A stretch of DNA of 64,000 bases, from the NCBI RefSeq assembly GCF_964204645.1, contig NC_134028.1:23410153-23474152 (forward strand), read 5' to 3'. The notes beneath the pieces are model-generated. The model worked only from the letters and a program-made list of their open reading frames with translations, did not search any database and was not told where the DNA came from. Positions 2,720 to 44,100 of the stretch are shown one piece after another. Origin of the DNA: Tubulanus polymorphus (taxonomy: Eukaryota > Nemertea > Palaeonemertea > Tubulaniformes > Tubulanidae). Made by a program: the position numbers and the translations under genes. Each line of letters begins with the position of its first letter. The first letter of the stretch is position 1.

Positions 2720-4080
2720 TTAATTCACGATATTGCTCTTCGATCTAAGGTTGATAGATAAGTCGAGTTGGTTAGTCACTAGGAGTAAATGGTCGCGTCG
2801 AGCGCCTAGTTTTGAGCCGTAGGTCTGTTGAGTTAACGCCTAAACTGAGATATAGTTTCAACATGATATTGTAAGTTTTATTGTGCTTACCATAGTTAAA
2901 CAGAGTCAACACAGTGGCTTTGCCCTGTAAATATCACATGGTTAGGAAACATAGAACATAACGTTCTATGTACAAATAATAAGTATTTGCAGAATTGTAG
3001 ATGTACCAATTTGATGGCATTGATATTTTCGAAGGCCCGTGTAACCAATTTGAGAAATGAATCATATATGTCGATTTTCACATGGAGTTTTAACTTTGAG
3101 CCTCCATCAATCTGTTCGATGCTACGTATTTGAAAGCAAAAGCTTTATCTAAAAGGAGACCATTATTTACATTTGAGAGGTAAAGCTAAAATTATAGCTA
3201 GGACTAATTTTGAACGTTTTTACATTGTTTATAGCTGTTTGAACTTCTTTTATTGTAATGGGTAAATCCATATCACGAGATGGCTCTCGTGAATAATAAC
3301 TTAGCTTCAAATCGGGTGTATAATGATTATTAAGAAGCGGCAGTGAATTGGTAGTGCTTTTTTAAAATGGGCCCAGAACTTTACTGTGAAAAAATGCCTG
3401 CAGTTGTAAATAGAGGAGTATAAATAATACATGATACAAAATACAAGTACATGAATAAATAAGAAAAACCAATAAATAAAAAATTATAAATTATAGATAA
3501 TAAATAATACAAAATACAAGTTAATAAATAAATGAATAATATTTAAAAAAAATAGATATAATAATAAGCAACAATACAAACAAACAACAAATTAATACTC
3601 TATTTACAAGAAAAGGCATTTTTTCAAATATTTATCAATAAGGTTTTCTCATTTATCGAACAACCTTCCCTAAGTATAGCGGAAACCCGAGATCTTTTCT
3701 GTTGTTGTTTTTAGCATTCTATCAACTCAGTTATTGTAATAAACAAAACAAATAACTATAAACCTTAACTAAATCGAAAACACTTTAAAAAAAATAACTG
3801 ATATGATAGAATGCTTTGAATAACTGTGATGAAAGATCGACCCGTCCTTAGAACTAGCTGCGCTCAATCACTGCTGTGACTGTTTATTGTTATACTGGGG
3901 TAGACTTACGGGGCAGACTTACTATCTAAAATCATGTACATACATTTTACTTTTTAGAAAGAATTAAAAACAGCTATAAATTTAAGTTATTGATGTTATT
4001 GATTAGTTACCGATAGTATAATTATGTTGATGTTTTCGAAACTGGAAGAAAAAACGTCAGAATAGTTAGTATTTAATGCC
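2720..4080. other. AT-rich intergenic DNA with one hairpin
   Basis: No gene was found. The stretch 3420-3620 is very A/T-rich, made of ATAAAT-type words. At 3713-3735 and 3791-3813 two 23-base arms starting AGCATTCTATCA form an inverted repeat with a 55-base loop, which may be a small MITE. Confidence 0.6.
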
Positions 4081-6680
4081 AAGGTGCTTGGACATCTTTA
4101 AGACAAGGCAAAATAGGCAAAATTCTAGTTTTCTAGTGAAAGTAATGATTAGTTGATACTTAGATTTCCAGAGTGAATCTGTATGTTCCATCTCTAGCTT
4201 TAATGCTCTATGTTGGAGACTGTTATTGTAACGCATGTTTGGAAATTAGGAACTTGTTGCATGATGATTCCTCGATTAAGATATTATTGTTGTGTGAATA
4301 AAACGATGTACATTTTCATCATTCATGTTGAAACTTTTTAGTTGTTAATTTTCATAGCAACAATTCCACTGTGGTGCTTTTCAGTGGTTCTTGAAATACT
4401 GATTTAATTAAGGCCCTGTCGAAAATAGCAGTGCATAGAATAGAAGGAGCTGTTTCAGGCTAACGTGAGGATTCAGTGCTAATTGGTCAATTGTCCTAGC
4501 TTTTTGTTTTGATTATCGGTTTAACTGCGTCTGTGTGGGGCCTGTAATATCTGGACAAGAAGAATTTATGATCTTTATATAGAGTTGTATTTATATCTAC
4601 TATCAAGTTGAATAAAACAATTAAGAAGTTACCGCAGCATCGTCTGTCAAACCATATTTATTTGAAGATACTCGATTTATCTTAAATTATCACGAAGAAA
4701 AACCTTTATAATAGTTTGCAGGGTTTGATCTAAGGAATAAATGCCACTTGACCTTGGGGCAAGCATATGTAATATCACTTGCCCCCTCAAAAATCAACTT
4801 GCTCTACATGAATAGTCCGATTGTGACACAATCATCCCTTGCATCCAGTGGGATAAAAGCTTTGAGACATAGAATTAAACAAGCCCGGTGGATGAGTGAT
4901 TATGATAACCTTCATGCCCTAATGAAAATATACTTGTCCCGGCAATTAGACTAGTGCTTAAATCAGACCCTGGTTTGTTTCAAATGTAACATTTGTAAAA
5001 TAAGCTAGTTGATAATTAAAGAAATCTCTCAGACGAGGAAATTTTTGGGAATGTTTTTAGTTTTCTTGTAATAACTAAGATTTATTAGTTTATCTTACGC
5101 TTTCCACAGTGAGTGAAGTTGTAGGTTTTATGTTGAACTGTTTTTTAAATAACTTATTTAGCGGGATATAATTGTTGTGTAAGAATAAGATGATGTTTCG
5201 TCATTCATACTGTGGTGCTCATCAATGGTTCATAAAATACTATTTTCATTAAGGCCCTTATGGAAAATAGAGTAGCAAAATAGAGGAGCAGTCTCTTGAT
5301 AAATTAGGATATATGAACAGTATTAATCAGTAGATTATGCTAGCCATGGACTCTAAAACCATGGTTTAACAATGTCTATATGGGTTCTGAAATATCTGCA
5401 CAAGAAGCACCTCAAAAAGTTAGTTATTGAATCTTAACTTAATTGTAGCAAAGCCATTAGTTATTAGTAATTGCCCTAGCTCTAATCAAATTGACAGTAG
5501 AAACAATATTTATATACTCGATTTATATACTTTTGTTGAATGCATAGAAGAGAATACCTCCAAAATACTTTGCATTTAATGTAACATTTGAGAAAATAAC
5601 CAATTTGATAATGTCTTGAAACCTCTTAAAGACAAGGCAAAAGTGGCAAAACTAGTTATCTTGTAAAATAATGTTAATGAAAATTAAATCAAAGACTGTT
5701 TATTTAATCCAATCTTAAGCTTTCCAGATTGAATTTGTGGTTTTATCTCCGGTTATAATGTTTTTATGTGGGGGACTTTTGAAATACAGGTCACGTTTTT
5801 GTAAATGACCGAGGCACTTCCTCCAGTACATAAATACCTGTCATTTAGGTATAATTGTTGTTGTGGAGATAAAACGACATGTTCATGTCAATTGTTCATA
5901 AAACATTGATTTATTAAGGTCCTATCGAATAAAGTTGAGCTTTTTCTTGATAAATGAAATGTCCTCAATCGATGTCATTTGAAAAGTTGACATGATAGAT
6001 TCATATTTCATGAAATATAACAAAGTGTCGGTTATATTGACCTCATGAATTGTCAAATTCATAATCTTAGACTTTCAGACTAGTCCAATTTTCGTTTTTT
6101 TATGGATCAAAGTTTGTAATTCTTTGTGTATTTTTGTTATTTTCTTAATGATGCAAATTGTCTGAATCAGCTGTAGTGGAAATGTATCGTAGATAAAGAC
6201 TTCTAAATACCTTACATGTAACTTTGTTTTAAGTTAGTACAATTTCATACATATTAATAGAAATAAAATTAAGGAGATTACTAAGGATTACTACTTGAGA
6301 AAATAAGCTAAAATATGTGAAAATAAAATGATGTAAGAATGTAAATCAGATTGATAACTTAATCCTACGCTTTCCAGAGTATTTGGCCAGGTTTATCTCT
6401 GGTTAAGTGCAGGGAGCCATGGACTCACGGTTTAAGAGTCCATGGTTTTGGGCCATAGACGTTTCTGTTTTAGAGTCTATGGTTGGACTAGGCGTATAAA
6501 CTCTCGTTTATAGTTTATACGCCTATGGTGGTTGGACTAGTTGTTTATGAAAGTCCGTGTTTGAGGAGCGAATATTATACGTTATAATTCCTCGCGCACA
6601 AACCTGACATTTTGTATAATTGTTGTATGAGAATAAATATCATTGATTTTGAAATTTGTCATTCGTTTAGTTAAGCAACA
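4080..6680. repeat. Diverged tandem array of a 0.7-0.9-kb unit, about four copies
   Basis: The same landmarks recur in the same order. (1) TGTAACATTTG followed by AAAATAA, near 4985 and 5580. (2) TTAAAGACAAGGCAAAA-like, near 4098 and 5625. (3) CTTTCCAGAGTGAA-like, near 4168, 5100, 5725 and 6370. (4) ATAATTGTTGTG followed by AATAAAACGA-like, near 4285, 5168, 5850 and 6618. (5) TTAAGGCCCT, near 4408, 5248 and 5916. Copies are strongly diverged, so this is an old duplication. No conserved long open frame was seen. Each unit carries a splice-acceptor-like TTTCCAG and an AATAAA-like motif, so duplicated 3' gene ends or repeated non-coding RNA units are possible readings. Confidence 0.65.
6417..6524. 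repeat. Three consecutive short perfect hairpins
   Basis: Hairpin 1 has arms CCATGGACTC (6417-6426) and its complement at 6436-6445. Hairpin 2 has arms CCATAGAC (6453-6460) and 6475-6482. Hairpin 3 has arms AGGCGTATAAACT (6490-6502) and 6512-6524. Loops are 9-14 bases. All three lie at the end of the fourth unit of the 4.1-6.7-kb array. Confidence 0.8.
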
Positions 6681-6962
6681 AGTGTTACTAAAACGAAGCA
6701 CTTCTAAAAACAAAGACTGCACCCGAGAAAAGAGACCAATTTACGTTTCCGGCAGAGGTGGTACAGAGCACTCCAAGTGATGATTTCGAGTCAGTATCTT
6801 CGGACTTTTTAGTCATGCAAAGTTCTAATACCCCAAAGTGCATAGGTCTTCGTTTTAGCAGCGCATAGTTTTTAGTAACACCCCCTAATTTCACTACCCC
6901 GCTATAAAATTAACTGCTTTTCACGGCCGGCCCGTGAATCATTTTCACGAACCCAGGGCCGC

Positions 6963-7236
6963 CTTCGGTTATCTGAGTTAGTCGACTATGGTCGAACTAA
7001 ACGAAACCGAATGCCCGTTAGTCGGAACTATATTCCGGAAATAGTTAGAAAATAAACCGAAGGAATTTGGCCCTCCTGGCGCATATTGTGGACTGGGCCA
7101 AATTCGGTTTTCACGGTATCTCGTCGACTAGTGGTCGGAACTAATAACCGAATGCGCTTGATTTTCGAACTATTTTCGGAATATAGTTCCGACTAACGGA
7201 TTCGGTTTCGTTTAGTTGACTAACTCAGCCGAAGGT
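6963..7236. repeat. Foldback element (MITE-like), 274 bp
   Basis: The ends are inverted copies: the left begins CTTCGGTTATCTGAGTTAGT and the right ends with ACTAACTCAGCCGAAG. Similarity continues inward through CGAAACCGAAT, CGTTAGTCGGAACTATATTC and GAATTTGGCCC, so nearly the whole element can fold into one long imperfect stem. There is no coding content. It sits about 600 bp before the IFT140 start and may lie in its promoter region. Confidence 0.8.
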
Positions 7237-7748
7237 GACCAATTCATTGGCAACCAGTCAAAATAGGTATAGAGGACGGCAACCAGTCTACGCACCAATC
7301 CACTCGATAAATACTAACATATCCATAATCATATCATTATTTCGTGGATTCATATTATTTACTAGTTCCCGAGTGTATCTCAGTTTTTGGGAGTTTTCCA
7401 AACATCGAACGAAGACGCTGTTTCGACGTTTCATCAGAAAGTTTGAAAGCGTACAATGTTGACAGATAGCAACTGCATATTTTCATTTGACTGAATTTAT
7501 TCGTGTAATTTGTGTACGTTTTCGCCGCTGACACTCGTCTACCGTCCACAAATACTGGTAAAATTATTCTCACAGTATATTTCAACCCTAAAATCGACGT
7601 TTACAACAATTAAATACGTCATAAATCGGTTTGAAAATAGAAAATTCAGCCTAATTCTGTTCAAATTCAATTAAACTTTATTCGTTAATTGTTGATAACC
7701 AGCTAAATTATTCGATTTTTTGTTCATCATTCGATTTAAGAAAACTTT
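7237..7748 (+). promoter_or_regulatory. Upstream region of IFT140 (inferred)
   Basis: This stretch separates the foldback element from the repeated start region of IFT140. It should hold the promoter and 5' UTR. No TATA box at a convincing position and no conserved factor site was identified, so the call rests on position only. Confidence 0.3.
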
Positions 7749-7753
7749 TGGAC

Positions 7754-7856
7754 GTCTATTTTGTAGATATTATATTATAATGGCTGTCTATTTTGTAGAT
7801 ATTATGATATAATGGCTGTCTATTTTGTAGATATTATGATATAATGGCTGTCTATT
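7754..7856 (+). promoter_or_regulatory. 32-bp tandem repeat carrying the start codon and two uORFs
   Basis: The unit containing ATGGCTGTCTATTTTG recurs with a 32-bp period, placing ATGs at 7780, 7812 and 7844. An earlier copy lacks the ATG. The last ATG starts IFT140. Each of the first two opens a 10-codon uORF (MAVYFVDIMI) ending in TAA whose last A is the first base of the next ATG (TAATG). Because the period is not a multiple of three, the three ATGs are in different frames. Ribosomes starting upstream would have to reinitiate to make IFT140, unless transcription starts after 7812. Confidence 0.8.
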
Positions 7857-10800
7857 TTGATCGGAAACTAGAATCGAACGTTTTAGGAAATCACGTATAT
7901 ACGGAATGGCACAGTACACAATCTATTCTAGCTGTTGCGTCATACAGCGCAGCGTCCGGGGGTACTATAAATCTGTATTTAGATGAGGTAAGATTGTTCA
8001 TCCTCGAATTCAACATTGTCGTAAACCTGGGGTCAGATCAGTTAGTTTCACAATCGGATATTTTCAAGCCCATCGGATTATAAAAGCTTACCACCAATGA
8101 TTAGGTAACTAGAGTCAGATAGATATGAACACAATGTGCAAAAATCATAGAAATGTGTGAAATATTTGAGAAGTGTTTGTCATTTTATCCTCTTTATGTC
8201 ATGATTCCGTAGAGCTCATAATATACACGAGCTGTGTTAAAGTTTTAGAAATTCAATCTGTTCAGACTTTTGAAGAGTCACCGATACGTTATTGTACCTT
8301 GAGATGAAAGAATCTCAAAACTTTGGAAAAAATTATAGGAAAAATTGAAAAAAAGTTGTTGGTATTTTGTTGTGAAAAAAACGTGTAAGCAAATTGTAAG
8401 GACGTGAGAATTCCAGAGTTCTTTCTGACTGCAATAACCTTCATTTTTATTTTGGCAGGGCGAACATTTACCGAACGCGACGATTGAGAGACAATGTCCA
8501 CCGACGTGTTTAACGTGGCATCCTACGAAGAAGATACTCGCCGTTGGTTGGGACAGCGGAGAAATCACGATATGGAACGATCAGGAACGCGAGCCGCATT
8601 TGGTGCAGAATTTACATCGAACGATGGTTCGCGCTTTAGTGTGGTCGTCAAACGGCACACGTTTACTGTCTTGTGATTCTGTAAGTTAGTCAGTGGTGAG
8701 GGTTTATGTAAACTGGGTGGCCACTTACCTGGAAGTCGGCGAAAAGTCAGAGAGAATTTGCGTTTCTTTAAAGAAAAGTCTGGAGAATTTTGTAAAAAAA
8801 AAATGCCGAAAATCAGGGAAAAGTCAAGGAAATTTGTTGAGATTGCTCGTAAAATCAAAAATTAGCTGTCTAGCCTTTGTCATATGTATTTGGCCTGGTT
8901 AATTGATTGGATTAGTAGCAGAAGTCAGGGAAAAGAGAGTGTATGTCAGGGAATAGTCGGGGGAAAAGTCACAAAAGATGTGGAAATTCCACTATTCACT
9001 GTTCTCGCCACTGAATTCGGCACGAATTGAGAGCGAAATTCATTTTGGAAATCCTGTAAATAATGGTTGATATTATTCTATATTAGAACGGACACGTCGC
9101 TGTGAGTAAAGCTGATTCGCGCGGTAAAATTCAACACATTCCTCTTTGTCAACACAACCTCACCGAAGCCGTAACGTACGCAATACTGAGACCAGCTTCA
9201 CAGGAAGACCGCAGAAGGTATGTTTGACATATCATCATTTCATTCATCACTTCGGAGAGGTGTAAGTGGTTTTGTGAATACACAAAAACACAGAAACGAT
9301 CAAATGAATTTTACTTTTTAGCCTCTAGACGCCGATTTCTTGCACCATTTTCAGACTAGAGGCAAAACTTTCCTTCTTGAAAAAAAAATGTCATGCAAAC
9401 CTTCTGCCAACCCACTGAGCCAGAAATGAATACTGTCAAGAAAAAATGAAAGAATTGGATTTCTATAAATAAAAGAAAAAAGTTAGCATTAGAGTAAAAA
9501 ACGTTAGCATTGGAGCATTAGAGTAAAAAATTGTATTTTCATATTACAGTGAACTGGCTCAGTTAGCTAAAGCTGCTGCTAGCGGTGACGAATCTGCGCT
9601 CGATTTGTTTAGTTGGAAAAAAGGCCAAACGAACTCGAAGATATCATCGCTACTCACTCCGGTCGAGGGCCTTTCATTTTTCATCGCTACTGACAGAGGT
9701 AAACAGACTTTGAGCTACGTATTTTTTTCGTGAAATCTTTCCTGGCGAATTGATTTATTTTCGTGTCTTTCTCGTAGGAAACGTGTTTTATTTGTCGGAG
9801 GTCGGCAAATGTACGCAGATTTTAACGGTCGAAGAATCGGTCGGTAAATTCTTATTCTATCAGGAGCGCAATGTACTGGTCACGATTACCGAGTCGCTTC
9901 TTTGTTATCAGCACAGCATTTTACCTGACGGTGAGGCCAAAGAAATAATCAAGGTAAACGTATATTTTGCGAGTTCGGGTTATTAGCTGGATGCACGGAG
10001 GAAAAGTAATCTAAAATCTTAAGACTTTGGTCTTAAGTTGTTAGATACCGTACCTATTGAACTAAAATAAGCTTAGACTGATCATAAGATATTAGCTTGG
10101 CTATAGAACCAAATGAGCAGTGACTGGTCTTAAGTTTTTTGGTGGGCTATAGAACTTAGTTATTTTAACCCTTTCAGTGCATCTACACCGCAGTGGGGTG
10201 TATAAATCAGTGATGGATTTTGCTAGTACACCACACTGCGGTGTATTGATGTAATTAGTAATTATCTCTCTTGAAAAATGGCAGCACTTGTCAGACATAG
10301 TGAAATACTAGTACCTAACGATACACCGCGCCACGGTGTAGATGCACTATAGTGGTATTCCCGTTATTCAATACACTAGGGTGGAATTTTTAAAGATTTT
10401 CAAATTATCTCTAGCACTATAGGGTATTAACTAGTCAGCACTGAAAGGGTTAAACGGTCTTAAATCTAAGACAAGACTGTGTGATACTGATACATTCAAT
10501 ACATTGGTAATGTTGCAGGTAAAGCTCAGTGGTAAACCACAAGATGCAGATTTTGTGTGGGCTGGTAAGGGTATCTTAGCTACAGTCTCTGGTGAGGCAC
10601 TCGTTCGTATGTGGGATTTAAACAATGAAGAGAACTTTGTGCTGCATATTGACCCGGAAATTACGAAAGTCGATCGAAGCATTTACATTACATCAATTAC
10701 ATATTCAAAAATCAAAGGTTAGCAATACAATTCTAAACCGAACATCCATATGAGCAATGCACTGGTAATCAGTTTTCTGACTTCGGTAACTCTGTTTTCC

Positions 10801-13800
10801 TATATTCAGAAATGATAACTGTTGGACTTTCTAACGGTCAACTGGTAATGTGGAAATTCAGTCCGTCTAAACATCCGAACCACGAAGAACTGGCCGATAA
10901 ATGGAAGTTGCAGCCATCTGCTTGTATCGCGGGCAGAATCTCACAGGTTAAGGTACGTTTATAACCGGATAACTGTCTACGAACAAACTCAGTTAAATAT
11001 CCACCCCAGATAAGTCGTATCATTCAGGTCGGCCATTGACCTGGATAACCTAGAAAACTCAGGGAATCAGAAAAATCAGGGGCAACTCAGGGAATTTGGC
11101 AAATTTTACCAAAAACCTGGATGGAATTCGGATGCTATTGACTGTATGTTTCTACCAGAGAGCATGAAAATGAAAAATGATTGAATTGTAACGTTTTTAA
11201 CCTAGAGATTTCTCTGATTCACTCGGAGAATTTTATGTCATCACATGGAAAATCAGGGGAAAACTCGGGTAATTTATAAAAAGCGGAAAAGTGGCCACCC
11301 TTATCGTTACTTAAGTCTTGACTATTAAATGGGGGCAACTTAACTGTGTTTGACTGTATATGATATCTGGTATATTGCTTTCAAAATGCAGACGAATGTT
11401 TTTGTTTTTTCAAGTGGGGCCCGAAACCGGATTTGTTAGTCGTGAATGTTACCGATGATGTGTTCGTTTTATGCGAACAAGTGATGAATTATCATTACAA
11501 CGATCAGGTCTGTATTTCCTCTAACTTCTAATAAAGAAAGTTCTGAAAATGTAACCGAATGTACGCATTCTAAGATCGTCGCGTTTTATTACAAATGTAG
11601 ATCGCGTTAGTTCAAACGGGGCCGTCCAATATATCGGTGAATATATTCTCGACGGGTAATTATCACGATCTAAAAACCGACATTCAAGTGAAAGGAACGT
11701 TTACGACAAAAGACCATTTGGTCGTTTGGAACGGAAAGAAGGCGATCGTCTATGAATATTCCAGCGACCGGCTGACGATTAAAGAAACAGGTATGTATTG
11801 GGCGTTAAAATATTCAAAGAAAAGAATTATCTTGCTTTTTAGAGCATCTTTCGTTTAATCTAGATGTTTTGTTTCTCATCTCAGGGTCGTTCGCTTGTGA
11901 ATCAATGATTCTGTGCATGTATGAGCAAAATGTCTACACGCTCGAACCGGGAAAAGTTCAAGTTCGAACTCCGCAGGTAAGTCAGACGCTGATTTCAGCT
12001 TCGTATAGTATAGTATAGTAGTAGTCATACTCCATACATACAATGTAATATTTGGATATATTTTAAGCGCACTATATGGTTATGAAGGATCCATTGGCTG
12101 TACTTAGAATTAAGGCACTGGACCCTGTGCATTTGAATTTAGTGTTCAGCAATTCTTGTCTTATGTCAACAAGAGAATCTAAATCTGTTGGAAATTCTTT
12201 ATTATAATCAATCTTGTTACGTTCCTGATAACCTGTTGTTATTAAATTGCATTTTCTAGGGTACTGTGAAACAGTTATTAAACTTCACCGATATAGAGGG
12301 TGAACCGACCCATGTTAATACGTGCGGTTCTTACCTCGTCATCGGCACTAGTAACGGATATGTGAAACTATTTGACCTCTCACGCAGGTAAATAATCCAC
12401 CTGGATCAGATCTTAAAGTTTGAACTAGTAAAATTATCGGTTTGCACCACCGATACTGAGTAGAATTTGAGGATAATTTTTTAAGGGGTCAGTTACTCAA
12501 AAGTTGGTTAAAGGTACCCAGTGGATAGTTGACATAGTGACAATTGAAATTGTATTGAGTCTATGTATCTGTGTCTATTTCTTCATATCTTCTTTATAGA
12601 GAGGCAAAACAGGTTTCGAGCACAAAGTATCTGCACGATCTTATTCCTAGTTTCGGACATATAACTTCAGTGAAATGTAATTCGAACGGAACCCGTGTCA
12701 GTATACTAGCTCAACTGGTGAGTATTTTAAGTTAAACGAAATTAAACGAAAACGAAGTTAAACGAAATATTCATCCCTATGTATCTCTCTCTGTAGAATA
12801 AAACCATTTAACGTTTGATTTCGTAGCCGGATTTGACACCCGAAAATAAGATGTATGTTTGGGACGTGGAACTCGATACGATTCAGTTCTTTAACTTCGA
12901 GTCGGGTCGCGGTGAACAAGATGATTTCGACAGTCTCGACGCTGACAATGAATACACAACAGCCGAAGAAAGGTAAGATTTGAAAGGGAAAGAGAGGGGA
13001 GAGAAAAAGTAATAGATCAAATTTAGCTTGTGCTCTATTAGAGAGCGTGTTGACACGTATTAACTCACTCATTACTGAATGCTATCAGATGATGCTGTGG
13101 CAAGTGAGGTGAGTCACTTCCGGAACAAGTTAACATTCACACGCAATAATTCAATCTGTGCTAAAATTTGGCAGGGGCCTGGTCTGATGTTTTTGGTCAG
13201 GCCCAATTTGACCCATGGTACGGAACCATTAGGCACCAGTGTGAATGGTTGGTCCGGTCTATAGTCTGGCACAGGCCAGTGTGATCGCAGATTTTGTGCG
13301 CTAAATCTGTAGATGATCTGATGTCGGAATAATGTATTTATTTATTCGATTCAGAGGTAAAAACCAAGCGGCGAAAGATATCGCGGGTCGATATCCGATC
13401 TCGCATTTCTGGGATCTCGAAGAGCCGAAGCTGTTGGTTTGTGAAGCGCAATTAATCGCGAAACCGCCGTCGTCGGAAAAATCGACGAAAGATAACAACA
13501 AAACTCTCGCTAAACATCCGTCGCTGTTGGGCAGCAAATCGGTTAATATAGAAGATGAGGTGAGTTCAATTCGAAACGACTTTGTTTCCTCCAGTGTGTT
13601 CTCCTCATGCTGGAATTTAAATGGGCTGCATTCATTAAGTACATGACATCGTGGCAAGGCTTTCAATCCTCCAGAAAATATGAAAAAGTTAAGCTAAATT
13701 TTGGTGTAATATTATATTTTTCACATAAGCTCGATATATTTTAAAGCAATTGTTAGCATTGATAGAATGTTGACATCCACTCTGGTAGGGGCTGGGGATA

Positions 13801-16800
13801 TATTATAGGGGATGTTTGATTTTCAGAGGGGTGGATGTGAGGGGTGGTAGCCCCTCTAAAACAAACCTGTTGTGGAGAACACTATTTTTACGGTATCATA
13901 ACCGAATCTGGAAGAAAATTCGGCATTTTCCTTGTTTGTCGTATTTCAGGTTGAAGTTATGGTCGTATCGTTGTTTTCGACGCCGGAGAACGGAATTCTG
14001 ATGCAGGATAGCTATGCGCGTAATCCCTCGTTTCAGGCCATAATCGGGCTCGACGTGCCGTATTACTACTTCGTAAAAAAGGTTCGTTCATTTAATGAGA
14101 GAAAAAAAAAACAGATTACGAACTGAAGTAACCTTATTTCTGATATCGGAGGCTAAAAATCTCGATGAAATCGTAATTGAAAGTGAACTTAATTTTGACC
14201 AAGCTATCGTATTGTCAGATAAAAACCCACTATGTACAATTAAACGAATTTTAAGATCGCGAATTTATTTCTAAAATGTAAAATATATGACATTTCGAAC
14301 TCACACGTCAGGTGTGAGATATAGAGAGTACAGATACAGAGGGTATATATATACAGGGAGAACAGGTTTATTGAGTAAAATAGTGAGAGAGTAAGTAAGT
14401 CATATCTCGAGAGAAATCCAACAATAATGAAGCCAAGATTGAAAAATTCTATATCGGAATGATTGTATTTGAGGAGCGACGTTTCGGCTAACAACTGTTT
14501 GCCATCATCAGGCAACTGTCGCTTGATGATGGCTAACAGTTGTTAGCCGAAACGTCGCTCCTCAAATATAATCATTCTGATATAGAATTCAACCTTGGCT
14601 TCGTTATTGTGGGATTTCTCTCGTTACCATCATACAGGGATATTGTGTATCTTCTCGTCTAACTAAGTCATATGTCACACCTGACGATGATCTCTAGTGT
14701 GAGATCGAAACGTCGTGTATTTTACATTTCAGAAATAAACTCGATTTTTAAATTCTTTTAATTGTACATAGTGGGTTTTTATCTCATAATCCGTTCACCA
14801 CGTTTGAGTGCGGTTATCGTACTATTATCGTATTATATTTTCATCAGACTGAGACGATCGAAGAAGAGAATGAAAACGACAATATGAGACCGGTTACGAC
14901 CAGTATGATACCGACGTTCTCTAAGATGATCGCGCGGCGCACGATGCGAGATTACGTCGGACTGGAAAACACCGATAAAAATACGAGAGACGCGATGATG
15001 AATTTCAGCTATTACCTGACGATTGGTAACATGGACGAGGCATTCAAGGCTATAAAACTAATCAAAAGGTAATTGCGAATTTGAAGGAAATGAAAATCGA
15101 GGGATCATTGTTCAGCCTAGTGTGTTATCAGGGTACCGGTAGCCATTTACCTGGAAATCAGAATGGTCGCGGATAAGCTAAATATCAGGGAAATTGGTTG
15201 GGATCACTAGATCGTGTGTAAAATGAAGCAGTTTCCATCTATGTCTTACATATTTGACCGTATTAATTGACTCGAAACGTATTTATCTCGGGGAATAGTC
15301 AGAAAAAAAGCAGGTCAAATGAAACGGCCACCGTGGTTATGGTTTCACACTATTGCTGATTAGTCGGTTTTGAATCGGCCTGTACGTCTTGTTAGGGATC
15401 AATTTTTAGAATCGACCAAATCAATGCATGGCTTTTTGTTTATCGCTAGTGAATCGGTTTGGGAGAATATGGCGAAAATGTGCGTGAAAAGTCGTCGTCT
15501 CGACGTCGCGAGGGTTTGTCTGGGGAATATGGGAAACGCGCGTGCGGCGAAGGCTCTTCGAGAAGCCGAGGAAAAGGAACCGGAATTGGACGCCCAAGTG
15601 GCCGTCTTGGCTTTACATCTAGGATTACAGGTAAGTTCATCGATAATGTTTTTTTTTTTTTGCAAATTTCTTTGCGTCTTGCTCGAATAAATCGTTCGCG
15701 TTCTACTTGTAGGAAGACGCCGAGAGGCTTTTAAAGAATTGTAAAAGATACGATCTTCTGAACGACTTCTATCAATCAACCGGACTTTGGAGTAAAGTAA
15801 GACAACGCGACGAACATAGCGGTGGATAAATACACATTCCCACACTAGAATTTCATGCGATAATCCACCTGATGATGGCTGTTTTTCAACAGCTGATATG
15901 TTGGGGTTTCATTTAGATGAATTTTATCTCATACTATTATATTGTGTGACTTTTTCATTTATCCACAGTTGACATGGATTAGAGTGTTTTATTAGACTGA
16001 TGCGATCAGTAGTTTTCTGATGAAATCGGTGCCTAATAACGTTCGAACGTTTTGTGTTTTTAGGCTTTGGAAACGGCAGAAAGGTTCGACCGGGTTCACT
16101 TACGAACAACTTACTATAATTATGGTAAACATTTAGAGTCTAAGGGCGATATTAATACTGCTATTCCCAAGTAAGTGAATCCTGATACCCGGAGGAATTT
16201 CAAAAATGAATTTCATCGCCGGTACTGATGATATCGTGGTTATTTTCGATAGTTTCGAGAAGGCGGACACGCATCGTTTCGAAGTTCCACGCATGTTATT
16301 CGACGATCCTCAAGTATTGGAGGGTTACATTATGAAAACGAAAGACAAGTATGTATATATAAAAACCGAGGTCATTTGGCAGAAATAACTTTAAAGAAAT
16401 ATTTCAGTTGAACCTCCCATTATGGACCCCTCTCGGCAAAGAACATCAGTCATAACAAACATTTTTTCCTTGGATCCAAAATTTGTAATCTCTACTTCGC
16501 TTTCCCCCAGTAAGAGGACCTCTTGTATTTGGTGTTTTGTAGAGAATTGCGTAAATGGTGGGCTCAGTACATGGAGAGTACCGGTGAGATGGAAACAGCT
16601 TTACAGTTTTACGAAGCAGCTCAAGATTATTTGTCTCTAGTCCGTGTTTACTGTTACTGCGGAAATCTTGAAAAGGTAATTGTACTTGATTCTAAGAAAC
16701 AGGTTTTCTCACTATCCAAGAATAATGCAGATGCACTCATTCAAAACAACACTTATCGATCGGGCATTTTTTTATGATTATCTTCTTCAGGCAGCTGAGA

Positions 16801-19800
16801 TATGTAACGATACGGGAGACGCCGCAGCTAGTTACCACCTCGCACGACAATACGAGAATCAGGATCGAATCAAAGAATCGATACATTTCTTTACTCGCGC
16901 GCAAGCTTACGGAAACGCTATACGTTTGTGTAAAGTGAGTTTCACCCATCTCTTGCCGGGCAGCTTAGATGATGTCATTATTAGCCAATCAGAAATCATA
17001 TTTGATCTTACCCGGATTATTTATTCCATTCAGCTATCATACAACAGACAATTTGGCACTTCACGTTGTGGCTAAAGTACTGTGTACCTGACGTGACGGG
17101 ATGGAGAATTATAACAATATAGTCCCATGTACAATGAGCAAATTTCAGATTATAAAGGCTTCTTTTTTTTAGGAGCATGGATTTGAAGATCAGATGATGA
17201 ATCTAGCGTTACTGGGTAAACCGGCTGATATGATCGAGGCTGCGCATTATTACGAACAGAAGCAAATTAGTTTAGATAAAGCAGTGATGCTTTATCACAA
17301 GGCCGGTAATCTACATAAAGCGTTGGATCTCGCGTTTCGCAGTCGCCAATTCGGAGCTTTGCAGCATATTTCTGAAAGCCTCGACGGCTCGGCAGATCCA
17401 CAGCTGTTGCAGCGATGTGCTAACTTCTTCATGGAGAATTCCCAGTTTGACAGGGCTGTAGATTTACTGGCTGCAGGCAAACAGGCAAGCAATTTATCGC
17501 ATTATTACCTTTGATAAAATGCTTTGTCCGTGTCGTGGGGATCATGTAACATCTTACAATAGAAATGAAAAACTCTTCCAAAATATAGCCTATGTTCTAA
17601 TGGTCAACATGACTATAAGCATATACTCAAAACTTTGAATTGATTTAATACTAGCCCAAAAATTCTGGAACTGCTATTCTATCTCCTTGTGAGATTTCAT
17701 ATTATTTGTCATAATAGTTCATTTTAGGTAAATATTTCTGTTTGATCTAATCGTGACCTTTGTTTCGGTAGTACTGGGAAGCGTTACAGTTGTGTAATGA
17801 ACAGAACGTTCCAATTGATGAGAATTTGGTCGAAAAACTAACGGTGCCGAAAGAGTCAGACATGCCGAACGAGGAACGACATCGATTGTTGGAAGCCATA
17901 GCGGACGTCTGCATGCAACAAAGACAATATCACTTAGCGACGAAGAAGTATACGCAGGCTGGAAATAAATTAAAGGCAAATTATGAATTTAGTTTACTTC
18001 GCGACTTAACATTAGACTCTGACTCAATAGAGTCAAAACTTAAGTCCCTATGTTTTTAATCACGTATCGTTTTCATAAACAGGCGATGAAGGCCCTGCTG
18101 AAATCGGGAGATACGGAGAAAATCATCTTTTTCGCCGGCGTTTCTCGACAGAAAGAAATCTACGTGATGGCGGCGAACTATTTACAGTCATTAGATTGGA
18201 GGAAAGATCCGGAAATCATGAAAAATATCATTAGTTTCTACACGAAGGGTAGAGCTATGGAGAGTTTGGCGTTATTCTATGACGCTTGCGCTCAGGTTCG
18301 TGTTCGATGATTTGACGTCTGTCTCAGAGCCGTCAACTGCTACTGATTTTCGTTACTATTTTGTCCCGAGAAATAATGATTTCATTTGTTTGATACGTAT
18401 TGAAGTATGAAAGATGCTACTGAGGGTCTTACCCACCCATTGATTACTGATTGAATGAATTTATTTGTTTGCAAATGAATGAATTTATTTGCAAAATAAA
18501 TTGTTACAAAAAATATCGACACAATATACATTATATTCAGATTAATTTGAACATTTCCTTTCATATTTCGATGAAATGTTCCCGAAAAAAAATTCTACTC
18601 GTTACTGATAGTACTTAACATAAGTTGGCAGCCCTGCGCTACAACAAATAATCGACAATCTACAAGTGATAATAATATATTTATTGTTTGTAGGTCGAAA
18701 TCGATGAATACCAAAACTATGATAAAGCGCTAGGAGCGTTGGGTGAAGCGTACAAATGCATTACGAAAGCGAAAATGAAGAATCAGTCTCAGCAAGAGGA
18801 GAAACTTACACAACTAAAAGCAAGAATGGATCTTATCAAAAAGTTTGTGCAGGCTCGAAGGTAAGAATGATTCGCATTTTACGATTCGAGCTCGTTTTAT
18901 GAAGATCGTTCAACCTTTCATTTTGAACTAATCATGGAAATGTGTGTTGTAGAATATATGAATCTGATCCGGATGAAGCGATCAAACATTGTCAGATTTT
19001 ACTGGAAGAAACCGATCTGGACACGTCCGTACGAATGGGTGACGTGTATGGATTCATCATTGAACATTACGCAAGTCGCGATAAGTGGAAAATGGTAGGT
19101 TTATTTTTAGGCCCCTTAAAAATTAGGACCTTAAAGAGCAGTTCTGATCAGGTAGGGGTTCGTTTCGTGGCTGAGTCTCACAATGCCATCTTATTCAAAT
19201 CCCTACCGAGGGAGGCCTCTTGGGAGCAGTCCTTATCAGGCAGTTTGTGTTGCAGCTATCTGGTTCCTTACCGAGGGAGGCTGCTTGGGAGCAGTCCTCA
19301 TCAGGCAGTTTGTGTTGTGGCTATCAGGTTCTCTGAGGCGTTTTTACGAGCATCCGATTTTTGCGATCGATCGTAGGAACGCATTTACGAGCACCGATTT
19401 TTGCGATCGATTTCACGATCGGCGTTTTTACGAACACGATTTTCCGATCGATTTTTGGAAATCGACCAACTCGCTTGGCGAGCGATTTGGCGATTTGATT
19501 TCCAAGATGGCGGCACCGGGTAGTTCAAAACCATACATTTTTTTCCTCAACGTCGCCATATTTATGTCATGTGATTAGCCAAATCCATCGTCATTTTTAC
19601 GAACATTCGATTCGATCGTACGATCGGAGCAAATCGTTCACGAAATCGATCGCAAAAATCGGATGCTCGTAAAAACGCCTCTGGTGAGGGAGGATGCTTA
19701 GGAGCAGTCCTAATCAGGCAGTTCGTGTTGCAGCTATCAGGTTCCCTGCTGAGGCAGGATTCCAGTACCGATCTGATATTGAAATATTCTATGTATTTTC

Positions 19801-20033
19801 AGGCTTATCAGTGCATTGAGGATATGCGCGCTCGAATTCCTAAAGTCAACCTGTCGTATTACATCAACTCGCAAACGATCGAAGCTATTTACGGAGCTTT
19901 AGACCTGCCTTTAGATAGACAATACGCGGCTAAAGATAAAATCAACGGTGTCCAAGTAATACACGGCGTCGATGATGAGGACGGTGAAGAGGTGGAGGAG
20001 GAGGTCGATGAAATGATTAATGGAGATTATTGA
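7844..20033 (+). CDS. IFT140: Intraflagellar transport protein 140 (IFT-A subunit)
   Basis: IFT140 is a core subunit of the IFT-A complex, which works with dynein-2 in retrograde ciliary transport and in ciliary entry of membrane cargo. Coding exons: 7844-7987, 8459-8680, 9087-9217, 9550-9698, 9778-9953, 10519-10717, 10810-10952, 11415-11507, 11601-11790, 11885-11976, 12260-12387, 12600-12717, 12827-12972, 13355-13559, 13950-14081, 14848-15068, 15450-15630, 15713-15796, 16064-16170, 16253-16348, 16543-16675, 16791-16934, 17173-17484, 17772-17975, 18083-18295, 18694-18860, 18953-19094, 19803-20033. They sum to 4,503 bp, so 1,500 residues; the human protein is about 1,460. The N-terminal half (to about 750) is WD40 propeller sequence (such as [20 protein letters not shown]). 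The C-terminal half (about 800-1430) is TPR-like solenoid, with family signatures [37 protein letters not shown] and [13 protein letters not shown]. It ends in an acidic tail. All junctions are in frame. Two introns use GC donors; the rest are GT-AG. Confidence 0.96.
8715..8975. repeat. Interspersed repeat copy 1 in an IFT140 intron
   Basis: It begins GGGTGGCCACTTACCTGGAA and is rich in CAGGGAAAAGTCAGGGAA-type words. Related copies lie in inverted orientation or partial form at 11036-11300 and 15138-15335. There is no coding capacity. It is probably a short non-autonomous element ending in GGGTGGCCAC. Confidence 0.6.
9990..10490. mobile_element. TAAGAC-family MITE split by a later insertion
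   Basis: The flanks carry the words CTTAAGAC, GGTCTTAAGTTGTTAGAT and GGCTATAGAAC on the left and CGGTCTTAAATCTAAGAC on the right. These match the element at 44653-44790 in the same order. The copy is interrupted by the TTAA-flanked element at 10169-10449. The whole composite is in the intron between the exons ending 9953 and starting 10519. Confidence 0.65.
10169..10449. mobile_element. piggyBac-like MITE, 281 bp with TTAA target sites
   Basis: The termini are perfect inverted repeats CCCTTTCAGTGC / GCACTGAAAGGG, directly flanked by TTAA at 10165-10168 and 10450-10453. TTAA target duplication with CCC...GGG ends is the hallmark of the piggyBac superfamily. The inside has no transposase, only hairpin words such as ACACCGCAGTGGGGTGTA and relatives. 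It is non-autonomous and nested in an older MITE. Confidence 0.8.
11036..11300. repeat. Interspersed repeat copy 2 in an IFT140 intron
   Basis: It contains ACTCAGGGAATTTGGCAAAT, AAATCAGGGGAAAACTCGGG and ends AGTGGCCACCC, matching the start of the 8715 copy on the opposite strand. It is non-coding. Confidence 0.55.
14218..14783. mobile_element. Foldback transposon, 566 bp, in an IFT140 intron
   Basis: The ends are inverted repeats: GATAAAAACCCACTATGTAC at 14218 and its complement ending at 14783. Inverted similarity runs through most of the element, including AAATGTAAAATA, TTTCGAACTCACACGTCAGG and a tight inner hairpin at about 14470-14572 built on GGAGCGACGTTTCGGCTAAC. The left half reads GATTTATTTCTAAAATG-like and the right mirrors it. 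No open frame of substance was found. It is a non-autonomous foldback/MITE element. Confidence 0.8.
15138..15335. repeat. Interspersed repeat copy 3 in an IFT140 intron
   Basis: It contains AGCCATTTACCTGGAAATCA, AATATCAGGGAAATTGG and GGGGAATAGTCAG and ends GGCCACCGTGG, so it belongs to the same family as 8715-8975. It is more diverged. Confidence 0.5.
17485..17771 (+). other. GC-AG intron in IFT140
   Basis: The exon ends AAACAG and the intron begins GCAAGC; the acceptor is TTTCGGTAG at 17771. Reading through gives a stop after nine more codons, whereas splicing here restores the IFT140 reading from GKQ to YWEALQLC. The donor context (CAG followed by GCAAG) is the usual strong context for GC donors. 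Confidence 0.85.
17976..18082 (+). other. Second GC-AG intron in IFT140
   Basis: The donor is AAG followed by GCAAAT and the acceptor is TAAACAG at 18082. Splicing joins NKLK to [13 protein letters not shown], which is the strongly conserved IFT140 reading. No GT donor nearby keeps the frame. Confidence 0.8.
19136..19760. repeat. 65-bp tandem repeat interrupted by a MITE, in the last IFT140 intron
   Basis: Units of about 65 bp (GGAGCAGTCCTTATCAGGCA and similar, with GCTATCAGGTTCC) begin near 19204, 19269 and 19684, with degenerate ends near 19136 and 19750. The element at 19336-19680 sits inside the array. Confidence 0.75.
19336..19680. mobile_element. MITE, 345 bp, with 36-bp perfect terminal inverted repeats
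   Basis: The left end (19336-19371) starts AGGCGTTTTTACGAGCATCC and the right end (19645-19680) is its exact reverse complement over 36 bases. A CTG is present on both sides (19333-19335, 19681-19683), a possible 3-bp target duplication. Degenerate copies of the TIR core (TTTTTGCGATCGAT) also recur inside. There is no transposase. Confidence 0.85.
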
Positions 20034-25346: not shown

Positions 25347-27942
25347 CTATACGTTTTCTTTGTCTATCAGAGGCGCTATTTCTTTTGACTGACTGCCCGA
25401 TTCATCTATGTATTCAAGGTCAAAACTTTTACCGAAGCCGCTCAGATTTGAATATTGTCTCTTGGCCGGCGACCTCGTGTGGTTTCGTCCGGCTACGCTT
25501 TCGTTAGACGTGTACCGTTCGTTTTCAACTTCTTTTAGGGGCGCTAGTTGGATATCCGCCGAATCGACCGATCTCAGACTCCGCCCGGACGTTTGCCGGC
25601 GAAATTCTTTCTTATCGAGTTCGAACGAGTCGAAACTGTCGAGTTTCGAATCGGGCAGAAACTCGCTGTAAGTCGGGGCTTGAAATTCGCCTTTTATCTT
25701 CGTTATCGAAATCTCTTCCAACGGAGTTCCGCCGCCATCGATAAAAGATTGACAGGCGCTGTTTGTGTTCCACGGGGAACAGGTTATAGATTTGACGGCG
25801 TTCATCACGTACGGTCGAAAAGCTTTGATTTTGCGAGTAACTCTGTACCGTTTGAATTCTTTCTTTAGCTCGTTCACTTGTTCGTTAGCGAACATTTCAC
25901 CGAATTGCGGCAACAGCGCCGCCAATAACGTCACGACGGACGTGACGACCATCGAAATTTCGCTTTGCCCTTCCCTGTTGAAAACGGTCATCGTAAAAAT
26001 GATCAGAAACATGAACAGAAGCGTCGCGAACAGACTGACCAACGCCCGGCGAAAATTCGGCGCAAACGGACTCAACTCCCGACAGATATGAAAAAACAGA
26101 CGACTCTGAATCATAGGAACGTGCGAATCGTTATAGAAAACGATCGCTTTATCAGCTCGAGTATTCTCATAGTGAACCAGTATCCCGTCGGGATCACGAA
26201 TTGTCATCTTTTCAACATTGTGCGTATGAACACACGAAGTAGTGACCACTCTGGCCTTGTAGACGGGCAGTTCACCGGATAGACATTCCTGGAAGACGGT
26301 GCGTTGGATTTCTGTGTAAGTACTACGAATGTTGGCGAACATTTTGTAAACGTAATAAATGGCCAGCGAAACTCCGGTCAACCAGGGGGTGATTATTTGT
26401 ATGTTTAATACAGTACCGGTCAGAATGTACATAACCATATGGAATAGACTATAAATGACTAGATAACTACCGCAGCCTACAGCGATAATGACGAATATCA
26501 ATAATCGGTGTACCGCGCTTTCCAAGTTCGGCATCATGTAAACCCATTTCTTCGATCTACGTTTGGCCTTGGAGTTATTATCCTGACACTCACTCCAAGG
26601 TTTTATGAATACTTTGATTAATGTATTCAGAAGCGCTCTTCGGACGCAGCTCAACTCGGTTAACCACCAAAACATCACGAGCAACACGTTAAAAAACGAA
26701 AGCGAGACCAGAATCAAGCTGATGACGAACGGCCAAAACTCCTTGTTCGTGATCAGCCACGACACGGGAACGTTTCTCAAATTAAACGCGATTTTTTCGT
26801 GCGTGTCCAAATAATTCATGTAATGAGGCGCGTTTGAATACTTGTACAGCCACCATCCGAGAGCTACGTACTGCGACATGAATACCGCCGTGAACCCGAT
26901 TTTGGAAGGTCTAATCGGGAAATGAAAGTCAGAGAATGTCCACATCGAAGCGGCCGTCGTGTATGGCAATAAGTCATTCTGATCGACGAGTACAGTATGT
27001 CCGGCGAGAGATCCATCTCCCTTCACGTAGAAATGGTCGATTTGTTGTAAACGATTTGTCAAATACGACACGATGCCTTTCGATATTTTATGAGGCCGAA
27101 CATCAGGGGATACGCACATCATGTACAGCACCACTAACGGTAGAACTAACCCCAATACAAACAGAATTACACGAATTACGCCGTGCTTCTTGTCCCATGT
27201 TTTCGTGCATATTTTATTATTTCTGTACGGATATATATCGCGCATGCAGCAATCGGGTCCGACTCCTACGAGCTTCTTGGTGATGAACGACCGATGTGTG
27301 TATGCAGTTCGGCAAATATAGTCCCCGAACGATCCGGTCGGAGATTTACCGATTTCTAAAGCATAATCCAACACTTTGTGGATCAAAGCGTATCTACATT
27401 TATGATTCAATTTTTGCAAACAGCCTTTCGGCTTGCTCTCCAACTTGAAATCGATGTCTTCGACCTTCAAAGTCAACAGCCCTACGGATAGGATATCGTA
27501 GTCGATAGGCATGTCGAGAATGAACGTGCCCTTTGCAGACACCCACATCCACCAGTAAGGATTGAAAGTGGTGTCGTTCTCGGACGACGATACGTTCAAT
27601 TCGACCCCGGATAGATAGAAATTGATCAGTTGAACGCCCGAACTGCGATACCCTGCTATTTCACTCCGAATGGCGCTCATATTCAACGCAGTCAAAGAAC
27701 AGGATTCATTCTTGACTACGTCCTCGTAACATTGATCTATCGAGTTGATTTTTGCGGTGTCTTTGACTCGAGTGATTGACTCGGCTAACTTAGCGATCAA
27801 TGCGTCTACATGGCAGCAGATCAACAGCAAGACCACGAGCACACGCAACCTGTAAATAGAAGAAAACCGCAGAGGATATAAAGCCTTTTGGCGACACCCG
27901 AAATCTAATAAAATACACATAAAATACAAATATTACTTACAT
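25347..27942 (-). CDS. Large multipass membrane protein with signal peptide, unrecognised family
   Basis: The main exon is 25347-27849. It has a good 3' splice site just upstream (TTCTATTTACAG). A 91-bp intron (27850-27940, GTAAGT...CAG) separates it from a mostly non-coding exon ending at 27941. Joining gives an ATG whose AT (27941-27942) and G (27849) lie in different exons, followed by a clean signal peptide, MLRVLVVLLLICCHVDA. The product is 834 residues. An extracellular domain of about 205 residues has paired Cys and N-glycosylation sequons. It is followed by probable helices near 225-246, 373-396, 450-476, 485-507, 603-624 and 632-650, and a hydrophilic tail of about 180 residues rich in Ser, Arg and Asp. 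The stretch between helices 4 and 5 is a soluble module of about 95 residues. I do not recognise the family. Reading through the intron from an upstream ATG would give a poor N-terminus, so the spliced model is preferred. Confidence 0.85.
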
Positions 27943-39800: not shown

Positions 39801-41136
39801 GTTGTGGGTGACTGTATTAACAGGAATTTTAAGGCATAGAACCATATATCTCGAGGTTAATTGCATTTCATCTAGAAGGAGGAAAACGTGACTCTGAGCA
39901 TTTCGTTAATGACTTGCCGAAGATTAAAGCGGAAAAGGATATATAATTCATATTAAAGGATATTGTTGTCTTTATGCGCACGGCGCGGGAACACCCGCGA
40001 TAACTTTTGAATCAATCACGGATGAAATGTAACCGATGGGCTCTCGTCGTTAATGCGGCATTTCGTGACATTTCCCAAAGGCAGCCGCAATATACGTATA
40101 TTCTATTGAAGACGTGGTACGATCGACGTATATCTACTCTTGACGATAGTCTGGCTTTAAAACCGATTACTTTTAAGTGAGATGCAGAATTCGAGCGTAT
40201 TCGCTGAAAACGGGTAAAAATTCGCTTATAATAAACTGGTTCTCTGAATCCTAACTAGTATCATCTTTATATAGACCGATTTTTAACGACATTTGTTCTA
40301 TCTTTCATTTTCTTCGGCGGATACATACAGTTGCCAGACGTTCACTTGCATCTAATTGGTTTCATTTCTGCGAAAAGGGACCGAATCTGCCGACTGCAAT
40401 GCGCTACTTCATTGACGTCACCTTTATGGCGAAAACCGAAAAGCCATAGAAAACCTCGTTGTATATTTTCGTTGACAAGTTTATAAAATGCCATCGATTA
40501 CCAATCCACGCGAGTTACATTTCGTAAATTTAACACCCTATGCTCGATAACTATTAGTTCATATTAGTCTGTCTAAAAGGACCGACAACATAAGGAATCA
40601 AAAGAAATGTTTTACATATTTCCAAACTATGTTCGGTGATTCGTATCTGATGTAACCCCCAATACGACGAGATAAACCGTCTTACAGTTACCACATGAGA
40701 TCGCGTGTATCGACCCTTTCTGCCCATATCATGAATGTATCAAGGGGATGAAAATCCGGTAGGTATTTACTGCGGTATCTGTCCGATTCATCCGCTAGCG
40801 GGCTCCTCGCCGTCGTAATAAATCATTTGCTTGGAGTTGGACTCGACGCCGAGTGAAGCGCAGCCACGGACGGACGCTCTGTTGTTCTCGGTACTGCTTG
40901 AGCTCGCCAGTGTTCATCAGTCGTGTCTCAGATGGCAAATCGGCGCTTTGGAGCTTCGTGTAACAGATTCCGCGCAAACTTACTGGAAACTGCAATAAAC
41001 TTGTAGTCATTAGGGATCTACGAAACTCAACCGTATCGTAATCAGACCGCTCTGTGGCGTAATACGATGGACCAAAAATGAATCAAATCGGACAAAACTT
41101 ACGCTTCATACTGTTCTAATAAATTTCTGAATAAAA
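36841..41136. other. Intergenic DNA, 4.3 kb
   Basis: No convincing exon was found on either strand. The last part should contain the promoter and 5' UTR of the GPCR at 41137. Open frames here (37629-37847, 38169-38453, 40795-41010) show no domain or splice support. Confidence 0.55.
37791..37833. repeat. GCC/GCT trinucleotide repeat
   Basis: A run of GCCGCC... flanked by GCTGCT units, about 43 bp. In AT-rich surroundings it stands out by composition. No accepted gene covers it. Confidence 0.85.
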
Positions 41137-44100
41137 ATGGCGCTGAACGAAGCCGAATTCGATTGCCGGCTTTTCGAATTCGTGAATATATCCAGAGATG
41201 GATGTGTGCCGTACTTCGACTTGTCCGACCAACCGTATCCGAGCACAATGGAGCCGTTACCACCGTGGGAAACCGCATTTAAGATAATCGTATATTTGTT
41301 TTTGATTCCTTTTTCATTTTTCGGAAATATCATCGTCGTTTGTATAGTGATCTTTAATAAAAACATGCGCGGCACAACTAACATTTACATCGCGAATTTG
41401 GCTCTCGGGGATTTTCTGATGGCATGTTGTCCGATGTGGGTGAATTTAGTGGAGGGCATAACTCGTCAGTGGAACCTCGGAGAAACGATCTGCAAAATAT
41501 TCCCGTTCGTACAAGGTAAGTTACGCGTTACGAGTTTTTACTTAGAAACTAATTAACATTAGATGACTATATTCTATCGGAAAAAATCGTGCGGATGAAT
41601 GAATATGAACCGACCAGAAAAAAATGAATTCGGTGAAATTACTATTTGAGTCGATGCAACTTTTTTTATGATCCATCGATATCAAACGGGACTGGCTCCG
41701 CAGCTGTCAGTTGAATTCGACTCTAAAGTGGAAACAAGTTGATTTTCCAATTTTTTCACATAGAGTCAAATTCCAACTGGCAACAATTGAACTGGATCCT
41801 CTGGTGTGTTTTATGTACATTTTTAACTTTTGCTCCTCTTAGTTAACAATGAACTGATTTCTGTACGGACAGCGCACAAGACTTCTTCAGCGAAATTATA
41901 ATTTTTAGAAAACTCTAATTTCGTCTCTTGAGAGCACCGTCTCCGGCGTAACATTTCAACGTTGACAACCGGCGAGAATTGAACAAATGATAAGATTCAT
42001 TTGCCTTTTTTACGAATCTAATATCCCCATTGGGACCAATATCCTGAGACAATTTAAAAGTGACGAACTTTTTTCCGGACCATCGATCTGTATCTCGACA
42101 TTTCGTCTGAAATTCGATCATTGTTTTCCGCAAAGCGAGGCTCTCAGATTATTTCGCCGCTACGACGTCGGCCGAAGACGGCGCGAAAGCCATTAGAATT
42201 ACGTGATTTTGAAGCGGTTGTGTTTCGTAACCTATTCTACGACTAGAAAAAGTGTCAGAGCTTTCGAATCGGCAAGAAGAAGTAGACACTCGACGAGTCG
42301 GAGTACCTGCCATGGTTAGATTAAATATTGATGTTAAGCGCTTTTTCTAGAAGCGAATTTAACAAGCTGCAGATTAAGTTCCGCTACTCAATTCCACGCA
42401 ATCCAAACTCTATATTTCACTCGTCGTGCGCCTATTTCGCCATCGCATAGATTTACACGTTTCACCATTTGTGCGAAACGCAATACTCCAACATTTCAAT
42501 TAGTGAAACATCAGCGTGTGGATCGGTGCTGTGATTCGCGAGTGTTTTAACACGAGCAATGACACGAACAGCTGCTCGGATATTAATCCCCGTATTTATC
42601 AAAAATGCACGCTTTTATTAGGCAGTTTGAAAAATAGCATCTAAACCGACGCGAATTTCGTCGACTCAGTGTCAGTACGGTATGATAGAACGCTATGCAA
42701 TCTAGAAATGTAGATACTTCCACGAATTCATTCTAAACTCATTTGTTTCAATAAAAGTATCAGTAATTTTCTATTTACATATACATTTATGGTTTGGGGT
42801 TAGTTTAAATTGGGTTAGAATATTTGTCTTATTTTTCGCGAGCAACCGTAGATGATTTATTTCGACCAGACGCGTTATTCATCATAGGCGAATTCATCTC
42901 GGAAAGTCAACAGGTAGCATTGATCCACTAAAAGCGGTATTAGCTCCGCACTGACTAGCCTTGGTTGCAAATTACGCGATTGGATGAATCAAGTAAATCG
43001 AAGGATTGCCTTACAGAATTGCTACGATTCTTTACGATTCGGACGACGAAAGGACGTTTCTGACAAAGGCCTGTACCTACCCCACACACCCCTGCATAAT
43101 AAATGTTACTCATCTTTAATTTTGAAATATTATCAAGCCGTAATAACACCTACAACTAATACAACATAATACATGTGTATTGAATTTGTTCCTTTATCTG
43201 GACCTTTTTATCAATCGGACTCACTCAAAGGCCATGTCAGGGCATCAAATTTTCAAAATTTACGTAGACCGCCGTTCAGCGCCAGACAAATAACAAACGC
43301 ACGAGTAAATTCCTGATGCTACGGGCAGGTGAATCGTAGTCGATCCTTAAGAACATCAACATAATTCTCCTTGACGTTATACAATTGAAGCCTCGCTAAT
43401 AAATCTAATTATGAATCGTTATTAAAATGGTTCTATAGCCTTAAGGTATTCGCGTAGAACGAGCAGTGGGTTTTCTATTTCAATACGGGAATCATCTCGA
43501 AGGTAAAAATAGACACCTCCAGTTGCAAGTCCGTCAAAATGTCAATCGTTGATTGATCGATTCTGTTCTCGTTATAATTGAATTGAACGCGCCAAGGGAA
43601 GTGAAAATCACGAGTTGAAAGGAACCAGAAATCTTCGTTTAGCTGACGACGACGATCTCAGAATTATGCGCAGTAGTTTTCGCTTGGCCAACCACTAGAT
43701 TCTACATTCAACATTCGTAATTTATTTCTGAACTAAATATGAAGTTAAATAAATCAGGGCCCGGTTTTATAGACTGGCATTATTTTTTAGCCAGGGGTTA
43801 ACTCAATTGATAATGAATTAGGCAGGCCCGGGTTTAAGTTGATACTAGTTTCTAAAACTGGGCTTTGGTCAGGATTTAGACAAATCGCTAAGACAATTTT
43901 CAAACCTCTTATGCACTAGATATCGAGCTGAAACAAAACTCTAAGAATTGAGTTGTTTTCTATCGGCGCTTTCCTTCCAATAGGTTATGTTACTGATTAA
44001 GCACAAAAACGCGTTCGTTATTTTTTGTGGTTCGTAAATGAAACATTTTGCATATCTTCAGACTCTCTCTCGTTTGATTCGATTTAAACTTTCAAATGTG

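Follow-up and report, generated by a model that had tools for sequence, protein, structure and literature searches.

The window, i.e. the whole stretch of 64,000 nucleotides of the Tubulanus polymorphus genome analyzed here, contains on its forward strand a gene whose start codon lies in a short tandem array (Table 1). Judged by its predicted protein, this gene is IFT140, a subunit of intraflagellar transport complex A: the frame from 7844 aligns with human IFT140 from residue 1 onwards (MALYYDHQIEA...; residues 1-158, E = 5e-34, phmmer), the N-terminal WD40 sequence and the TPR region are colinear with the human protein, and tblastn matches span human residues 1-1445. All junctions of the 27 introns were located; the human query is an approximate guide for exon finding, and the N-terminal identity was checked separately by phmmer. 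Reading back from 7844 in the same frame, the first stop codon is TGA (7805-7807), and no ATG in this frame intervenes; hence the IFT140 start codon is, according to the alignment, the last ATG of the array, which matches human Met1. The phmmer result and the tblastn/exon map agree with the original prediction that the gene is IFT140, that its start is tandemly duplicated, and that the last ATG is the true start. Both the gene and the array have only one match in the 267.8-Mb assembly, in which neither a second IFT140 copy nor an alternative array haplotype was found.

Table 1. Features at the start of IFT140, in positions of the window
Feature	Position	Strand	Basis or remark
Tandem array	7754..7859	+	TRF, repeat search, unit comparison
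Unit 1 of the array, 32 bp	7754-7785	+	
Unit 2 of the array, 32 bp	7786-7817	+	
Unit 3 of the array, 32 bp	7818-7849	+	
10-bp partial copy, already IFT140 coding sequence	7850-7859	+	
3' splice-site-like TAG, unit 1	7764..7766	+	score 9.5; exon would start at 7767
3' splice-site-like TAG, unit 2	7796..7798	+	score 8.9; exon would start at 7799; would remove the 7780 ATG
3' splice-site-like TAG, unit 3	7828..7830	+	score 8.9; exon would start at 7831; would remove the 7780 and 7812 ATGs
Decoy ORF 1, MAVYFVDIMI*, 10 sense codons and TAA	7780..7812	+	context attataATGG
Decoy ORF 2, MAVYFVDIMI*, 10 sense codons and TAA	7812..7844	+	context gatataATGG
IFT140 coding exon 1	7844..7987	+	phmmer to human IFT140, exon map
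IFT140 coding region, 28 coding exons and 27 introns, stop codon 20031-20033	7844..20033	+	tblastn, junction map

A foldback element (6960-7235) with arms of 45, 18 and 16 nt lies about 0.6 kb in front of the IFT140 start; it has at least 81 matching pieces of about 82-95% identity on all large contigs and looks like a MITE family. A long inverted sequence in an IFT140 intron (about 14460-14600, region 14270-14720; GAGGAGCGACGTTTCGGCTAACAACTG ... and its complement, by eye) is probably another foldback element. The last intron carries a 65-bp tandem repeat (19200-19331), with a similar copy near 19690-19750 (about 19680-19760). Elsewhere in the window, an uninterrupted frame of 861 codons with several hydrophobic stretches (25347-27932, minus strand) gave no match in a Pfam search and resembles, by eye, a DC-STAMP/DCST-like membrane protein. 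Pieces of rhodopsin-family GPCR genes (PF00001) are located at 41131-41556 and 53907-54560 (minus strand); a further piece at 63329-63856 (minus strand) was assigned by its similarity to 53907-54560, which suggests a local cluster of the three.

The tandem array and its origin

Tandem Repeats Finder describes the array with a period of 32, 3.3 copies and a 97% match. The core of the unit occurs three times in the window, compared with 0.00 expected from shuffles, i.e. there are at least three head-to-tail copies beyond chance. Unit 2 has the same sequence as unit 3; two of the 32 bases of unit 1 deviate from this sequence. The array expected at 7754-7856 is real and consists of three 32-bp units as predicted, but it ends at 7859 and one of its units deviates from the others. 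Upstream of 7754, a possible decayed fourth unit was considered and rejected, as only 6 of 22 bases match by eye, which corresponds to chance; the left boundary stays at 7754. That the array is an artefact of sequencing or assembly appears barely plausible: it is known from one assembly only and two of its units are identical, but it sits in a 27-Mb contig, its 106 bp would be short for a long-read assembly, and the two differences in unit 1 are not those of simple stutter.

According to our model, the DNA spanning the IFT140 start would have been duplicated by slippage or template switching, giving rise to a short minisatellite in which the ATG at 7844 alone would be the start codon of the gene and the two upstream copies would be by-products. 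The 10-bp piece at the end of the array, GTCTATTTTG, forms part of IFT140 codons 3-6 and fits the conserved N-terminus; the coding copy is therefore presumably the original and the upstream copies are derived. Sequence decay increases towards the 5' side, where unit 1, the farthest from the gene, looks oldest, as is expected if constraint falls on the last ATG only. The unit also contains short self-complementary stretches (TCTA...TAGA and ATATTAT...ATATAAT), which may have helped slippage. Folding of the leader RNA gave z = -2.6; such a value is to be expected from repeats of a unit that is rich in A/T and partly self-complementary, and we rejected it as a sign of function.

The genomic background was estimated from 214 kb (15 pieces of 10 kb plus the window) for arrays with units of 20-60 bp, at least three copies and at least 90% match. 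These cover 0.13% of bases without the IFT140 array and 0.18% with it, a rough figure from a small sample in which only three arrays of this class were seen, that of IFT140 included. Assuming 20,000 genes, tens of start codons would be expected, again roughly, to lie in such arrays before selection. Starts written TAATG or TGATG account for about 5 of 39 Ras-family starts in the same genome (by eye), and one or two stop-start chains are predicted genome-wide by this rough calculation, so that a single case matches the chance expectation. The array over the IFT140 start is probably a short, neutral minisatellite. With other short minisatellites and tandem duplications at the 5' ends of genes it shares near-identical head-to-tail copies of tens of bases, of the kind arising by slippage or unequal exchange; it differs from them in that it contains the start codon, and every copy adds an ATG. 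Other repeats in the material are a 117-bp satellite-like array at 595-1056 of the window (4 copies, 96% match, TRF) and a 31-bp satellite (ATTTTGGTTTTGTCGCCCGCGACAATTCATT) with about 30 copies on the same chromosome, seen at 2957-3911 and 4904-5198 of sampled piece L041.

Decoy reading frames and their effect on translation

The ATGs of the array, at 7780, 7812 and 7844, all have A at -3 and G at +4, i.e. an equal and strong context, and the first two occupy the two frames other than that of IFT140. Each opens a decoy ORF that contains a further ATG (7804 and 7836), two codons ahead of the stop, and each TAA shares its final A with the ATG that follows (TAATG); the stop codon of the second ORF thus overlaps the IFT140 start by 1 nt. 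Coordinates and translations bear out the two 10-codon ORFs, each overlapping the following ATG by one base, that had been predicted; they would count as uORFs only if they belong to the mature 5' leader of the mRNA.

This register follows from the length of the unit. Because 32 leaves a remainder of 2 when divided by 3 and the start reads TAATG, the ATG that is copied 32 bp upstream is followed 30 bases later by TAA, in frame with it; any unit length with the same remainder yields a stop-start chain, unless an earlier stop interrupts it. The chain is an arithmetic by-product of duplication, and selection is not required. Of the proposal that repeat expansion had created an unusual chain, the repeat origin stands; the chain is unusual only as arithmetic.

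A further question is whether the decoys would affect translation. An Inr-like TCATTC at 7727, 53 bases upstream of the first ATG, could by its sequence give rise to transcripts that include both of them. Leaky scanning presupposes that the upstream AUGs have a context inferior to that of the main AUG, and here the three contexts are equally strong; leakage past the first two ATGs should therefore be limited, except with a cap in their immediate vicinity, given that short leaders raise the leakiness of scanning (PMC13219423). Reinitiation is permitted where an appreciable distance separates the stop from the next AUG (PMC5972666), and here the two overlap by 1 nt. Such an overlap denies the 40S subunit the distance to regain initiator tRNA, as has been argued for the UGAUG uORF of SLAMF1 (PMC5972666), and among DENR targets, uORFs that overlap the CDS are underrepresented (PMC6547434); overlapping uORFs are accordingly poor substrates for reinitiation (PMC5972666, PMC6547434). 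The UAAUG stop-restart of influenza B is about 10% efficient and relies on a TURBS element (PMC5972666); the UGGGA core of such an element, located within about 45 nt upstream of the stop-start site, has no counterpart in our locus, as no TGGGA occurs in 7680-7850. With equal contexts, a 1-nt overlap and no UGGGA core, the expectation that translation of IFT140 would rely on leaky scanning or reinitiation is not upheld. In an mRNA containing both decoys, the pair of ATGs in strong context, combined with the 1-nt overlaps, should cause strong repression of IFT140. Since decoy-bearing mRNAs would be poorly translated and the gene is needed for cilia, it is more likely that the productive mRNAs avoid the decoys.

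An alternative is that the main mRNA carries the decoys as genuine uORFs that keep IFT140 translation low, the output of the gene being achieved by rare leaky scanning or by TAATG stop-restart and varying with copy number. The ORFs do exist in the register that this model needs, the Inr-like site lies close upstream, UAAUG stop-restart is known in viruses, and ORFs of 10 codons are short enough for 40S subunits possibly to remain competent. Against this stand the small leakage expected from equal contexts, the lack of distance in which to regain eIF2-GTP-Met-tRNA together with the depletion among DENR targets, the missing UGGGA core, and the small yield to be expected of two such steps in succession, in a gene required for cilia. 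We therefore regard this alternative as doubtful, even though a real chance has to be granted to it. The further proposal that copy number, if it varies between individuals, sets the count of decoy ATGs and 3' splice sites and in this way tunes IFT140 via stop-start uORFs seems very unlikely.

ORFs whose stop codon overlaps, or all but overlaps, the following AUG are known from the human SLAMF1 leader (UGAUG), the dual uORFs of KSHV ORF35-37, influenza B M1/BM2 (UAAUG) and calicivirus VP1/VP2 (PMC5972666, PMC3561293). All of these lie in mapped mRNAs, whereas the IFT140 decoys are known from genomic sequence. The viral cases have tested functions, and influenza B and the caliciviruses possess TURBS, unlike the IFT140 array with no UGGGA core. 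Finally, the IFT140 decoys differ from all of them in being copies of the gene's own start.

Splice-site-like sequences in the units

Each unit contains a 3' splice-site-like sequence, TCTATTTTGTAG|ATATTA, which the original prediction had overlooked and which makes a spliced-in upstream exon a live possibility. Under an acceptor matrix trained on the 27 real acceptors of one gene, IFT140 itself, the three sites combine a pyrimidine-rich tract and an AG in the manner of the gene's own acceptors: they outscore 74-81% of these (leave-one-out) and rank in the top 1.0-1.3% of the 3342 AGs in the window. An acceptor this good is found within 70 nt of 3.4-3.7% of random positions or ATGs. Upstream of Ras-family starts in the same genome, acceptors scoring at least 7 were found in 7 of 39 cases, compared with about 8% by chance; a 5'-UTR intron with its 3' end close to the start codon is probably present in a minority of genes.

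Donor scoring revealed no strong donor within 2.3 kb upstream of the array. The best sites close to it score 5.2 (at 7558) and 6.0 (at 6391), while nearly all real donors reach at least 6.3, and donors of typical strength, with scores of at least 7.5, occur upstream only at 5419, 2026 and 1550. From a minority of about one gene in eight with such an intron and the 26% of real acceptors that score this high, we roughly estimate at most even odds for an IFT140 5'-UTR intron ending in the array, lowered by the lack of a strong donor. Such an intron would remove one, both or neither of the decoy ATGs: splicing to the unit 1 site would retain both decoys, and splicing to the unit 3 site would leave only ATG ATA TAA between the junction and the start codon. 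The role of these acceptors must be resolved before control by uORFs is claimed.

The array could also serve as a set of tandem 3' splice sites of a 5'-UTR intron, whose alternative use would determine whether a leader has two 10-codon uORFs, one or none. Three strong and nearly equal acceptors in steps of 32 nt, each downstream choice of which drops one decoy ATG, would suit this model. However, the nearest AG downstream of the branch point is normally preferred, which would favor the first site; moreover, a strong donor is absent within 2.3 kb, and acceptors this good precede about 3.5% of random ATGs. We consider this alternative clearly improbable. Acceptors receiving a trans-spliced leader would be expected to show just this pattern of strong sites with no strong donor upstream, but the presence of a comparable acceptor at only seven of the 39 Ras-family starts argues that trans-splicing is not general here, and we give this explanation hardly any weight. 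An Rfam SL1 search gave no match in this genome, and none in the control genomes either. Splice-site and intron changes by local tandem duplication, as reported for Drosophila (PMC2891723), share with our case a short duplication that copies splice-site sequence; the IFT140 candidate site, by contrast, would lie in the 5' UTR and has no evident donor partner.

Preferred explanation and significance

The explanation we favor, with somewhat more confidence than doubt, is that of a neutral minisatellite: the decoys are by-products, their register is arithmetic, and productive mRNAs mostly exclude them. We infer that most productive IFT140 mRNAs would have 5' ends without the decoy ORFs. Two routes would lead to this: transcription that begins within the last unit or shortly ahead of it, or a 5'-UTR intron that extends to the 3' splice site of one of the units. 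Any mRNAs that retain the decoys would be translated poorly, and the array may modestly lower output without being a dedicated control device. Nothing in the sequence indicates that the array controls IFT140; functional control by uORFs is no more than a possibility. A link to the ciliary promoter was also sought: the best X-box (RFX) candidate within about 1 kb upstream has three mismatches, and it was rejected, as 185 of 200 shuffles do as well.

For annotation, the locus is a warning that a duplicated start codon can give perfect-looking uORFs without evidence of transcription, and a gene finder could pick the wrong ATG at such a start. If the decoys do prove to be in the mRNA, the array would allow stop-start reinitiation to be tested cleanly in a natural setting, in a gene of an animal and on length variants that arise by slippage.
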